DNA from: an uncultured Brevinema sp.
Lineage (GTDB): Bacteria > Spirochaetota > Brevinematia > Brevinematales > Brevinemataceae
Direction: 5' to 3'
Length of the DNA: 64,000 nucleotides
NCBI GenBank assembly: GCA_947038195.1
Contig: CAMQVI010000005.1
Span: 1-64,000 of the forward strand
Under the pieces are notes generated by a model, which saw nothing but the letters and a program-made list of their open reading frames with translations, made no database searches and was not told the DNA's origin. A program made the position numbers and the translations under genes. Positions 9,136-14,270 of this stretch are shown piece by piece; position 1 is the first letter of the stretch, and every line of letters starts with the position of its first letter.

Positions 9136-10059
9136 ATGGTAAAATTTATTAATGTATCTCAAGATTATGGAACTTTTAGAGCTCTTCATAATCTCAATTT
9201 TGAAATTAAAGAAGGAAGTTTGTTAGCTTTATTGGGCCCTAATGGTGCTGGTAAAAGTACAACTATGAGTATTATGACAGGATTTAGACCTCCTTTAGAA
9301 GGGGAAGTTTTTATCAATGGTATTAATATTTTTGAAGAACCAGAAAAAGCGAAATCTTTTATAGGCTATCTTGCTGAAATTCCACCCCTTTATCCTGAGC
9401 TTACAGTGAGAGAATATCTTACTTTTGTAGGAGGGGTTAGAGGCTTATCTGAAGAGGATGCTTTAAAAAGAACAAAAGAAGTGCTAATCCTTCTTCATAT
9501 AGAAGATAGAGAAGAGGCACTTATTAAAAATTTATCTAAAGGTTTAAAACAGCGTGTAGGTATTGCTCAAAGTATTTTACATTATCCAAAACTTCTTGTT
9601 TTAGATGAACCTACAGTTGGATTAGAACCAGCCCAGTTAATAGAATTTCGTCAATTAATCAGACATCTAGCGATAGAAACAAATATGACTGTTGTGATTT
9701 CTACCCATATTATGTCTGAGGCCTCAGAACTTTGTGATGAAGTTATTATTATTAATGAAGGAATAAAAATATTTGAAGGATCAAAGGACACTCTTCTTGT
9801 TCAAAACGAGAAAGGGTTCACTTATGAATTATTAGTGGTTCGTTATTCTGATGAATTGATAAACCACCTTAAAGGTATAGACAAATTGTTAGATGTTGTT
9901 AAAAAAGAAGATATATTGTATATTTCTGCTTTAGAGGATATTTCAGAAATTATTGTAGAAGAGACGATAAAGTTTGGAGCTGGGGTTAAAACTATTAGTC
10001 CAGTAGTAACTTCTTTAGAAAAAGTATTCTTAAATCTCACAATAGATAAAAATAAATAA
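9136..10059 (+). CDS. ABC transporter ATP-binding protein (GldA-like)
   Basis: 307 residues. Walker A is GPNGAGKSTT (about residues 34-43), the signature is LSKGLKQRVGIAQ, Walker B is LLVLDEPTVGLEP, and the switch His is in STHIMSEA. A C-terminal extension of about 90 residues is typical of ABC-2/DrrA/GldA-type exporters. The next gene, 9 bases downstream, is the membrane permease and the third is a GldG-like auxiliary protein. Together they form the three-part ABC-2/Gld arrangement found widely outside gliding bacteria. The transported substrate is unknown. A GGAATAG ribosome site precedes the ATG. Confidence 0.92.
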   Translation: MVKFINVSQDYGTFRALHNLNFEIKEGSLLALLGPNGAGKSTTMSIMTGFRPPLEGEVFINGINIFEEPEKAKSFIGYLAEIPPLYPELTVREYLTFVGGVRGLSEEDALKRTKEVLILLHIEDREEALIKNLSKGLKQRVGIAQSILHYPKLLVLDEPTVGLEPAQLIEFRQLIRHLAIETNMTVVISTHIMSEASELCDEVIIINEGIKIFEGSKDTLLVQNEKGFTYELLVVRYSDELINHLKGIDKLLDVVKKEDILYISALEDISEIIVEETIKFGAGVKTISPVVTSLEKVFLNLTIDKNK

Positions 10060-10068
10060 GAGGAAAAA

Positions 10069-10779
10069 ATGTCAAAGATATTAGCTATTTATAAAAATGA
10101 AGTAAGGCTTTATTTGTTCTCTTGGTTAGGATGGTCTTCTTTAATTATTATTAATTTAATTGCAGGAATGGGTTATTTATTGGGATCTGTTCGTTTTGGA
10201 AATTTTCAACATTTTTTTAGTTTAGTAGAAATGCCTTTCGCTTGGGCGATTTTTATTGCTGGAGCAAGAGCTCTAGCTAAAGATAAAGAGTTAGGACTAT
10301 TTACTTTATTTTTTACAGCTCCTATTAAATTAAGTGATGTTCTTATCGCTAAATTTTTAGCTCTCGTCAGTTTCTTTTTTGTAGGCCTTTTAAGTCTTTT
10401 GTTTTATCCTATTCTCTCTAGTTTATTTTTCTCTATTTCTTGGATGTCTGTTCTTTCTGGATTTGTTGGCTTGGGATTGTTAATACTTGTTTTTGCTGCT
10501 CTTGCTCTTTTTGCTTCTTCTCACACAGATAATACAATGATTAGTATTGTTATTGCTTTTGGAATGTGGATGTTTCTTTATCTTTTGGGTTCTTTTGGAA
10601 CAATGGTGGATCCTAATTTGCCGATGGCATCTTTTCTTAAAGAAATTTCTTATTCTTATCATTTTGGGAATCTTAGCTCTGGGGTATTTTCTTTAGCTGA
10701 TATTGGCTATTTTATTGTAGTACCTTATTTTATTTTGAAATTAACAGAATCTAAAATTTTAAAACAGATAGCTCATTAG
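10069..10779 (+). CDS. ABC-2 type permease (GldF-like)
   Basis: 236 residues with six hydrophobic segments, starting LAIYKNEVRLYLFSWLGWSSL, the usual start of ABC-2 exporter permeases (x-KxELxxYFxSP). The DKELGLFTLFFTAPI loop after the second segment matches the family's 'ERxxGTxExLLTxPI' loop. It partners the upstream ATPase in the inner membrane. GAGGAAAAA precedes the ATG, and the spacing indicates co-transcription and probably translational coupling. Confidence 0.88.
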   Translation: MSKILAIYKNEVRLYLFSWLGWSSLIIINLIAGMGYLLGSVRFGNFQHFFSLVEMPFAWAIFIAGARALAKDKELGLFTLFFTAPIKLSDVLIAKFLALVSFFFVGLLSLLFYPILSSLFFSISWMSVLSGFVGLGLLILVFAALALFASSHTDNTMISIVIAFGMWMFLYLLGSFGTMVDPNLPMASFLKEISYSYHFGNLSSGVFSLADIGYFIVVPYFILKLTESKILKQIAH

Positions 10780-10787
10780 GGGATAGC

Positions 10788-12389
10788 ATGAAAAAAAATT
10801 ATATATTACTTGGAGCTTCTTTTATAGTTGCCCTGTTTTTAGGAATTATTTCTTACATTGCTTTAGGGGAGAGAAGTATCTTCTTTAGAGGATCTTTATT
10901 ATTAATTTTGATTTCCTTGGTAGGGAATCTAATTTATTTTAGAAAATATCTTTCTCAACATCTTAGAAGAGGAAAATTATCTCGTATTAAATTAATAGAA
11001 AGTTTTGCTTTATTATTCTTTGGTATTGCTCTTTTAGCTTTGATAAAAAGTTTTGATTTAAATGTAGATTGGACGGCAAGGCAATTATTCAAGTTATCAG
11101 AGGAAAGTAAAACAATTATTTCTCGTATTGAATCACCTCTTACAATTACTATTTTTTCTTATCAAGAAGATGGGGTTATTGGTTTAGTAAATTATGCTAG
11201 TCAAATGGCCGAACGCTATGAAGCAGCCAATCCTAAAATGATAAAATTTGAAACCTCAGACCCTATTAGAAATAAATCTAAAGCAGATGAATATGCTATA
11301 AGACAAAATGGAACTATTGTTTTTGAAATGGATGGAAGAAGAGAATATGTGCTTCCGAATCTTCTTGTAGAAAATTTTGCGGAAGGAGAGATTTCTTATA
11401 AAGGGGAAACGATTTACTCAGCTATAATAGACAAATTAAATAACAATAAAGAAACTACAATTTATTATCTCACAGGTCATGGAGAAATAGACTTTGACGC
11501 TGGTGGTTTAGCAGGCTATGATGGTATCAAGCAGATGCTTCTCGATAGACGTTATAATATCAAAGCGATCAACTTAGATCATTATATAGAAATGCCTGAA
11601 GATATGGATATTTTAATTGTAGCGGATCCACGTACAGAATTATCTTCTCGTACTTATCAAATGATAGATAAGTATGTCAACGAAGATGGTAATACTCTAT
11701 ATATGGTTAGTAGAAATACGATAGATGACCTTAATATTCTATTAATGAGTTCTGGTTTTGTATATTTACCTAATGTTGCTGTAGACCCAAGTAGAGTGGC
11801 AAAAGATAGTGGGGAATTTTCTATTATTCCGACTTTATCCCCAAAATCAGAAATAACTCTGCTTTTAAGAAATAAAAAACAATCCGTAATTTTCCCCTCT
11901 GCTTCTGTAGTATATTCTCTTCCTCAAGACCTAACAGACACAAATAGTATTTATGATATTAGCCCTCTTGCGAGAATGTCTCAATATGGATATGGAGAAA
12001 GATCCTTTGCTTCAGGAGTATTTCAAAAAGATGATAAAGATATAACGGGGATTTATTGTTTAGCTATTGCTTCTATTGTTGCTCCTAAAGATGATCTAGA
12101 GAAACAGAGACGGTCTGTTATTTTTGGTTCTACAGAATTTATTGATAATACTAGATTATATACAGGTGGTAATGCTGAGTTATTTGTAAATTCTATTGAC
12201 TTTTTATTAAGAAAAGATTTGAAAACTACTATTGCACCTAAAAATGAAAACCTCACTATAAGTGTCCCCCAACCAGAGCAAATGAGAGCTATTACGGTAG
12301 CTGTGCTGATATGGTTGTTTGTTTGGACGGGAGTAGGCGTTCTCCTTCTTTTAGGCAGAAGAAATAGAGTAAAGAATGTAAAGAAATAG
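10788..12389 (+). CDS. GldG-like ABC transporter auxiliary protein
   Basis: 533 residues. Three hydrophobic segments lie in the first 90 residues, a periplasmic domain at about 95-500 and a C-terminal transmembrane helix (about 508-525) followed by GRRNRVKNVKK. The periplasmic part has VDWTARQLFKLSEESKTII, a hallmark of GldG/ABC_transp_aux (DLTxxKxYTLSxxT), and TIYYLTGHGEID, matching the family's 'xYxxxGHGE' motif. Such proteins act with GldA and GldF homologues. The gene starts 8 bases after the permease. Its message probably ends at the parS/terminator palindrome at 12402. Confidence 0.88.
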   Translation: MKKNYILLGASFIVALFLGIISYIALGERSIFFRGSLLLILISLVGNLIYFRKYLSQHLRRGKLSRIKLIESFALLFFGIALLALIKSFDLNVDWTARQLFKLSEESKTIISRIESPLTITIFSYQEDGVIGLVNYASQMAERYEAANPKMIKFETSDPIRNKSKADEYAIRQNGTIVFEMDGRREYVLPNLLVENFAEGEISYKGETIYSAIIDKLNNNKETTIYYLTGHGEIDFDAGGLAGYDGIKQMLLDRRYNIKAINLDHYIEMPEDMDILIVADPRTELSSRTYQMIDKYVNEDGNTLYMVSRNTIDDLNILLMSSGFVYLPNVAVDPSRVAKDSGEFSIIPTLSPKSEITLLLRNKKQSVIFPSASVVYSLPQDLTDTNSIYDISPLARMSQYGYGERSFASGVFQKDDKDITGIYCLAIASIVAPKDDLEKQRRSVIFGSTEFIDNTRLYTGGNAELFVNSIDFLLRKDLKTTIAPKNENLTISVPQPEQMRAITVAVLIWLFVWTGVGVLLLLGRRNRVKNVKK

Positions 12390-12401
12390 TAAATAAGAAT
12401 C

Positions 12402-12433
12402 AAAAGGATGTTTCACGTGAAACATCCTTTTTT
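12402..12433. terminator. Palindrome combining a parS site with a terminator shape
   Basis: Bases 12402-12431 form a perfect 30-base palindrome (15-base arms beginning AAAAGGATG) followed by more T. The arms begin with A4 and end with T4-6, giving a GGATG-containing stem and U tail like a rho-independent terminator for the ABC/GldG operon. The middle 16 bases are the parS site. Confidence 0.7.
12409..12424. promoter_or_regulatory. parS site 1 (perfect)
   Basis: TGTTTCACGTGAAACA is the exact canonical bacterial parS palindrome bound by ParB/Spo0J. It lies 104 bases upstream of parA. Confidence 0.95.
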
Positions 12434-12453
12434 ATATTTAAAATTAATACCAA

Positions 12454-12469
12454 TGTTTCACGTGAAACG
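12454..12469. promoter_or_regulatory. parS site 2 (one mismatch)
   Basis: TGTTTCACGTGAAACG matches parS in 15 of 16 bases. It sits 45 bases from site 1 and 2 bases upstream of the parA -35 box, so ParB binding here could also affect parAB transcription. Confidence 0.92.
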
Positions 12470-12471
12470 TA

Positions 12472-12500
12472 TTGCTTTATTCATGTATATGTAGTATGAT
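12472..12500 (+). promoter_or_regulatory. parAB promoter
   Basis: TTGCTT at 12472-12477, 17-base spacer, TATGAT at 12495-12500; the parA ATG is at 12528 with AGAGGT ahead of it. Confidence 0.6.
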
Positions 12501-12527: not shown

Positions 12528-13295
12528 ATGGCTAAAATTGTGGTAGTGGCAAACCAAAAAGGTGGGGTGGGAAAAACCACCACCTGTGTAAACCTGGCAA
12601 GTTACGTAGCTAGTAAAGGAAAAAAAGTTCTTTTGCTAGACATAGATCCTCAGGGAAATTCCTGTTCTGGTCTAGGGGTGAATCATTCGGAGAGAAATGA
12701 AGGGGTTTATGGGGTTTTTATAGGGTCCAAAACTTTTAAAGATGTTATTATCCCGTCTAAATATGAGAATCTTGATATTGTTCCTGTGTCTATAGATTTG
12801 GCAGGGGCTCAGGCAGAGCTATTTGGCCAGAAAGGAAAAGAGTATATTATTAAAAAAGCTTTAGAACAGGTTAATGATGATTATGATTTGATTCTTATGG
12901 ATACCCCTCCTTCTTTAGCACTCTTTACTTTGAATGGGCTTACTGCTGCTCACAGTGTGTTAATTCCTCTTCAAAGTGAATTCTATGCAATGGAAGGGTT
13001 GGCTCAATTATTACAAGTAGTAAAATTGATTAAAAGCTCCACCAATCCAGACTTAGAAATAGAAGGTGTGGTGATTACAATGTTTGATCAAAGAACCAAT
13101 CTTTCTAAAGATGTTCTTAATGAAGCGATAAGTTTCTTCAAAGAGAAAGTGTATAAAACAATTATCCCTAGAAATATTAGATTGAGTGAAGCCCCTTCTC
13201 ATGGATTATCTATTTATGATTATGATTCCTCTTCTCAGGGATCTAAATCTTATACTTCTTTTGGCGATGAGTTTATCCAAAAATCAGGTATTTAA
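12528..13295 (+). CDS. parA: ParA/Soj chromosome-partitioning ATPase
   Basis: 255 residues, the length of chromosomal Soj-type ParA without an extra N-terminal DNA-binding domain. The deviant Walker A box is NQKGGVGKTTT (residues 9-19). Walker A' is LLLDIDPQGN, and DLILMDTPPSL is the Walker B region. ParA binds DNA non-specifically as an ATP dimer and moves ParB-parS complexes at the nucleoid. It is followed 16 bases later by parB and preceded by two parS sites, so this is the chromosomal par locus rather than an isolated ParA paralogue. Confidence 0.96.
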   Translation: MAKIVVVANQKGGVGKTTTCVNLASYVASKGKKVLLLDIDPQGNSCSGLGVNHSERNEGVYGVFIGSKTFKDVIIPSKYENLDIVPVSIDLAGAQAELFGQKGKEYIIKKALEQVNDDYDLILMDTPPSLALFTLNGLTAAHSVLIPLQSEFYAMEGLAQLLQVVKLIKSSTNPDLEIEGVVITMFDQRTNLSKDVLNEAISFFKEKVYKTIIPRNIRLSEAPSHGLSIYDYDSSSQGSKSYTSFGDEFIQKSGI

Positions 13296-13311: not shown

Positions 13312-14232
13312 ATGCAACCAAGAAGAGGTTTAGGAAAAGGGCTTTCTGCTCTTGTAGAAGAAAATGTAGTTAATCCTTTAGTGGAAATTACTCCAAATTA
13401 TGAAGAATTAAAAGAAAATATATCTTCTAATAAAGGGGTACTAATGGTTTCCCCTGAAAAAGTTTTACCTAGTAGATACCAACCAAGAAAAGAATTTGAC
13501 GATTCTTTTCTGGAGGAATTGGCAGAGTCTATTAAAAAGCATGGCATTATTCAACCTCTAGTCGTATCTGATTTAGGCGATGGTAATTATGAGCTTGTAG
13601 CAGGGGAAAGACGTCTTCGTGCTTCTAAAATAGCAGGACTTCTGGAAGTTCCTATTGTTATTAGAGAGTTTGAAGAAAAAGATAGATTAGCCGTTGCCTT
13701 GATAGAAAATATTCAGAGGGCTGACCTAAATGCTATAGAAATTGCCGAGGCTTATCAAGAAATGATAGACAGAGTAAAACTTACTCAAGAAGAGGTTGCT
13801 CTCGTAGTAGGTAAAAGTAGAACTAGTGTTACTAATACTTTAAGACTTTTGAAACTATCTCCGTCCATTAGGACGAAGATAGTTAATCATAATATTTCTG
13901 AAGGTCATGGGCGTGCTATTTTAGGATTACATCCTGATTTTAATAAAATGGAAGAAGTAGCACATCTAGTGGAATCTAAAGATTTTTCTGTTAGGCAGAC
14001 AGAAGAATTGGTGAAAAAATTAGCTAGTGAAGTGATAACTACTAATAAAAATAGCAATATCTCTTTACAAAGTGATAGAATTTTAGCCCTAGAAGAAAAG
14101 CTAGTAAAAAATCTTGGAGTTAGAATAAAAGTTTCTGGGAGTACAGAAAAAGGATCTATAAAATTATTTTACCATACTTCAGAAGAATTAGAAATTTTAG
14201 TACAAAATATCTTAAAAAATAAAGACTCTTAG
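13312..14232 (+). CDS. parB: ParB/Spo0J centromere-binding CTPase
   Basis: 306 residues. The N-terminus RRGLGKGLSALV is the usual ParA-stimulating peptide. The CTP-binding/ParB-nuclease-like fold at about 45-140 shows SRYQPRKEFD, LAESIKKHGIIQPLVV and the CTP box VAGERRLRASKIAG, followed by ALIENIQRADLNAIE. A helix-turn-helix (TQEEVALVVGKSRTSVTNTLRLL, in two parts) recognises parS, and the C-terminal 40 residues dimerise. Co-transcribed with parA. Its stop codon lies within the terminator hairpin. Confidence 0.96.
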   Translation: MQPRRGLGKGLSALVEENVVNPLVEITPNYEELKENISSNKGVLMVSPEKVLPSRYQPRKEFDDSFLEELAESIKKHGIIQPLVVSDLGDGNYELVAGERRLRASKIAGLLEVPIVIREFEEKDRLAVALIENIQRADLNAIEIAEAYQEMIDRVKLTQEEVALVVGKSRTSVTNTLRLLKLSPSIRTKIVNHNISEGHGRAILGLHPDFNKMEEVAHLVESKDFSVRQTEELVKKLASEVITTNKNSNISLQSDRILALEEKLVKNLGVRIKVSGSTEKGSIKLFYHTSEELEILVQNILKNKDS

Positions 14233-14241
14233 GAGTCTTTA
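14221..14241 (+). terminator. parB terminator
   Basis: Arms AAAGACTC / GAGTCTTT around TTAG, then ATTT. The stop codon of parB is in the loop. The short T tract makes it a moderate candidate. Confidence 0.6.
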
Positions 14242-14270
14242 TTTGATTTATAAACTTATAAGGGGTTAAA

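Follow-up and report, generated by a model that had tools for sequence, protein, structure and literature searches.

The window, i.e., the whole 64,000-nucleotide stretch of DNA analysed here, comes from an uncultured Brevinema sp. of the phylum Spirochaetota and carries a parAB pair downstream of a three-gene ABC operon, all on the plus strand. The operon begins with an ABC transporter ATPase gene (9136–10059; PF00005, 2e-29), continues with an ABC-2 type membrane protein gene (10069–10779; PF12679 at 2e-5, under the curated cut-off, with the gene order kept in two relatives, G002 and G003) and ends with a GldG-like gene (10788–12389; PF09822 ABC_transp_aux, 1e-16). Downstream, parA (12528–13295; PF13614, 7e-65) is followed by parB (13312–14232), which encodes a canonical ParB with ParB_N, HTH_ParB and the GERR CTPase motif; the protein closely matches solved ParB/Spo0J chains, GERR motif included. 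Between the gldG-like stop codon (12389) and the parA start (12528) lie, in this order, a palindrome centred on one parS site (parS1), another parS site (parS2) and a putative weak parAB promoter.

The palindrome between the gldG-like gene and parA

An earlier note on this DNA had described a perfect parS as the centre of a perfect 30-base palindrome placed directly after the GldG-like gene, and both points were borne out by a reverse-complement check and by the PF09822 match of the gene. The segment 12402–12431 (AAAAGGATGTTTCACGTGAAACATCCTTTT, no strand assigned) is identical to its reverse complement, is laid out as AAAAGGA-TGTTTCACGTGAAACA-TCCTTTT and is separated from the gldG-like stop codon by 12 bases. 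parS1, at its centre (12409–12424, likewise strandless), matches the consensus at 16 of 16 positions. Two more Ts follow on the 3' side of the palindrome, completing a run of six Ts on the plus strand (12428–12433). The transcript would form an intrinsic-terminator-like hairpin with a 13-bp stem and an ACGU loop; six of the eight bases in the tail after the stem are T, and the RNA 3' end would be expected at about this run.

The predicted fold of the palindrome RNA has an energy of −16.1 kcal/mol, compared with −4.6 for shuffled sequences (z −5.6). The parS 16-mer folded alone gives −3.9 kcal/mol, which identifies the outer arms as the main source of hairpin stability. Four of the 13 stem pairs are G-C, and the energy is within the range of the other terminator-like sites in the window. 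Among the 20 such sites located after gene ends, the palindrome ranks 16th by energy (−15.5 kcal/mol in this comparison), and its T-tail (6/8) is above their average. The terminator scan of the 8–18 kb region placed it at the top of 15 terminator-like sites, where 4.6 were expected, and returned no second terminator candidate in the gldG–parA gap; Rfam gave no match anywhere in the window. Judged from its sequence, 12402–12433 is a plausible terminator of ordinary strength. Given the 16-mer, the chance of seven extra perfect pairs on its flanks is about 1–3 in 10,000, and 22 of the 63,860 window positions reach seven such outer pairs. A chance origin of the palindrome was ruled out by composition and by the permuted flanks and dyad shifts described below.

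The second site, parS2 (12454–12469, no strand assigned), has one mismatch and lies immediately 5' of the putative parA −35. The promoter itself (12472–12500, plus strand) reads TTGCTT-17-TATGAT, agrees with the consensus at 8 of 12 positions and falls under the scanner threshold. The 2.03 Mb assembly contains no parS within two mismatches other than parS1 and parS2, and about 0.0007 exact parS 16-mers would be expected from its composition. The central 22 bases of the palindrome (12406–12427, GGATGTTTCACGTGAAACATCC) are the parS oligonucleotide used for in vitro CTPase assays of Caulobacter ParB, so the inner arms should not block ParB action (PMC7053999). In a read-through RNA covering 12380–12475, parS1 would pair with parS2 over about 18 bp, a pairing that would arise too late for classical antitermination.

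The gldG–parA–parB order is kept in both G002, which belongs to the same genus (ParA 85% identical), and G003, which belongs to the same family (ParA 72% identical). Each of their gldG–parA gaps holds one parS, directly 3' of the gldG stop codon, with only two further perfect pairs, so neither relative has perfect outer arms at this orthologous position. The conservation of the arms, which the earlier note had proposed as a check, was thus not found at this position, and conservation of the palindrome by descent within the family of the window was rejected on the same two genomes, which marks the palindrome around parS1 as an additional element. The gap parS of G003 sits 3 bp 5' of a good −35/−10 pair, a geometry like that of parS2 relative to its promoter. 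G003 also carries an alternative composite: its parB and SPFH genes are convergent, and a palindrome of 46 bp centred on parS lies between them. At that place after parB the window has a terminator-like hairpin without parS (14217–14244, plus strand), which spans the parB stop codon and has a matching hairpin, with some changes, in G002.

parS-centred palindromes in other bacteria

The survey drew on 80 named parA loci and their genomes, the order of Coprococcus catus, the spirochaete relatives, and the classes of Anaerovorax, Terribacillus, Janthinobacterium and Nonlabens. With duplicates and one repeat family removed, the set comprised 316 exact parS sites, for which genes were assigned by simple ORF calls. 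At least six perfect pairs outside the 16-mer were found at 40 of these sites, and the 184 intergenic ones, from several phyla, included 32 whose outer arms pair perfectly over 6 bp or more; some sites come from related species, and the counts are not fully independent. The flanks were permuted 2000 times, with left and right arms taken from different sites; on average 0.98 sites then had arms of this length, and never more than 5. When the dyad was shifted by 1, 2 or 3 bp, 0–1 sites had arms of at least 6 bp. These counts place parS-centred palindromes far beyond chance, and the excess is centred exactly on parS.

The arm sequences vary freely by species (AAAAGGA in the window; AAAGCCAA, ACAGCAGGAA and AAACAAGAGCGAA elsewhere), which rules out an extended ParB motif or a longer ParB consensus. 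A reversed-pattern control, a palindrome of the same composition, had no exact match in the genomes surveyed with it, and chance terminators with a parS-like core were discarded on this ground. Hairpin parS sites make up about 18% in the Clostridia and Lachnospirales samples, 5/46 in spirochaetes, 1/32 in Bacilli (where most parS sites are intragenic), 1/23 in Bacteroidia and 0/11 in Gammaproteobacteria. Hairpins are rarer inside ORFs (6/40 vs. 108/240). A later spirochaete sample required a T-run near parS and provides examples only, no rates; it includes a 42-bp GC-rich palindrome (−34.6 kcal/mol) adjoining the convergent gyrA in G586, as well as palindromes in G062, G023, G559 and G511.

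Several features of the surveyed palindromes bear on a terminator function. Among the 32 intergenic hairpin sites, 20 lie at most 60 bases from the stop codon of a gene reading towards the site, and 13 satisfy a simple terminator definition. Near gene 3' ends, a tail with at least five Ts in eight bases accompanies 59% of hairpin sites vs. 25% of non-hairpin sites (p = 1.4e-4). Proximity to 3' ends did not itself differ in the survey (20/32 hairpin vs. 72/123 other intergenic parS sites) and was dropped as a discriminator; the GC content of the arms of the surveyed hairpin sites was not elevated either. In G511 and G570, both selected by the T-run, the palindrome lies 3' of an orthologous N-acetylglutamate-synthase-like gene, and its stem is preserved through two double compensatory changes. 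On the strand of this gene, two of the G570 stem pairs are G-U. G-U wobbles did not favour the sense strand (2 sense, 5 antisense) and were abandoned as proof of RNA-level selection.

In one spirochaete family (f6), parS palindromes of 38–56 bp are flanked by divergent genes, a setting in which no terminator is expected, so that not all parS palindromes are terminators. The sequence evidence makes terminator use likely for many of them, that of the window included, with a possible contribution from another force, perhaps mutation that extends palindromes. Two of the f6 palindromes, L353:1481–1536 (G077, 56 bp) and L352:1487–1530 (G018), lie between divergent serS and AMMECR1-like genes. Their arms differ by three paired changes, and a MITE-like insert, accompanied by a 9-bp duplication (ACTATAAAG), interrupts the L352 palindrome.

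A candidate terminator on parS1 and its alternatives

The reading that we consider probable is that a functional parS underlies an intrinsic terminator at 12402–12433, which would end the ABC (GldG) operon. The dyad of parS1, the ParB loading site, would have been lengthened by the 7-bp outer arms and the T-tract into an intrinsic terminator. ParB would bind duplex DNA, and in the nascent RNA the copied dyad would fold into a 13-bp hairpin that precedes the U-tract; with different molecules being used, both roles can coexist without dedicated coupling. We infer that ParB binding and termination would both occur in the cell, and that the ABC message would end 5' of parS2 and the parAB promoter, which would thereby be shielded from read-through. 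A polymerase halted at 12428–12433 would cover parS1, which makes some mutual interference physically likely. The earlier proposal that one element serves as both operon terminator and parS holds as sequence anatomy, i.e., in the position, the hairpin, the T-tract, the adjoining parA and parB and the second parS, and its function is predicted. Other loci and other phyla also contain parS palindromes, with arms of their own, so the loss at the orthologous gap does not refute the class.

Template-switch mutation corrects quasipalindromes, and the conserved 16-bp palindrome of parS might draw such mutations, which would extend its dyad in non-coding DNA. Long parS palindromes would then be by-products, just some of which later become terminators. 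This explanation would account for hairpin sites being no nearer to 3' ends than other intergenic parS sites, for arms without raised GC content, for the rarity of hairpins inside ORFs and for the long perfect palindromes found between divergent genes too. However, it leaves the enrichment of T-tails beside 3' ends unaccounted for, and in the window the tail, the distance from the stop codon and the A4/T4 ends all fit a terminator; as the explanation of this element we regard it as rather unlikely. The same T-tail enrichment speaks against a role at the DNA level, in which the arms would aid ParB loading, cruciform extrusion or the binding of another dimeric regulator. The f6 palindromes between divergent promoters, which keep their symmetry via paired interspecies differences, are consistent with such a role, but no arm motif is common to the species and most parS sites have no arms, which makes arms unnecessary for ParB binding. 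We give this role hardly any credence.

A tighter connection between the two functions is conceivable, with ParB at parS1 altering termination or the terminating polymerase governing ParB loading, and with parAB expression or centromere activity responding as a consequence to transcription of the ABC operon. The spreading of ParB is reported to be blocked by RNA polymerase and DNA-bound proteins (as cited in PMC7053999), which makes interference plausible; a polymerase in the act of terminating would lie across parS1, and the putative parA −35 directly adjoins parS2. Nevertheless, the composite is missing in G002, of the same genus, despite an identical gene order, and such a switch appears very unlikely. 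The broadest version, that parS-centred terminators are a recurrent bacterial device by which ParB occupancy and termination control one another and polymerase is kept off the centromere, strikes us as quite improbable.

Related signals in other systems

Like other chromosomal ParABS systems, the locus combines a perfect parS for ParB/Spo0J nucleation with canonical adjoining parA and parB and a second parS near the parA promoter. parS is usually described as a stand-alone site of 14–16 bp, whereas parS1 forms the core of a longer, T-tailed hairpin. With intrinsic (Rho-independent) terminators the element shares the 13-bp stem, the four-base loop, the T-tract, the location 12 bases past a stop codon and the A-tract on the opposite side. 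It differs from them in that a fixed protein-binding site, poor in G-C pairs, makes up the core of the stem, the strength coming mostly from the length and the outer arms. The nearest precedent for reuse comes from Neisseria, in which closely spaced inverted pairs of DNA uptake sequences form terminators (PMC2397512), so that a signal with another role, DNA uptake, is similarly reused as a terminator stem. The Neisseria stem consists of two separate inverted copies, whereas in the window one palindromic site serves as the core; parS, moreover, functions in chromosome segregation, with one or two copies in a genome. Taken singly, both parS and the intrinsic terminator are standard elements. The earlier note knew of no standard description of such a dual element, and in agreement with this no description of a parS-centred terminator was found in the literature searched, from which subscription journals were largely absent.

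In the sampled bacteria, roughly every sixth intergenic parS site forms a hairpin core. If this survey rate holds, a plain 16-bp description of parS falls short, and the neighbourhood of the centromere would contain built-in transcription stops, which would be relevant to the way in which ParB loading and spreading accommodate transcription. With DNA uptake sequences as the first example, parS would be the second DNA signal of different function that terminators make use of. Experiments with inserted parS sites call for caution, as the flanking arms can add a terminator.

Two further observations concern parS-like palindromes. A 44-bp palindrome centred on a parS variant with a single mismatch in the middle (TGTTTCATGTGAAACA) adjoins the 3' end of a radical-SAM-like gene at L150:3413–3456 (G076). 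In G103, an Acetobacteraceae MAG reached via L086, sixteen exact parS 16-mers (L179–L194) are distributed over many contigs. Most of these copies are followed by the conserved stretch cTTGTGAGG ... TGTTAGTATGGCTTAATTTTTTGCTTGC and often lie just 3' of genes; from their sequence they look like a dispersed repeat family or an operator bearing a parS palindrome.
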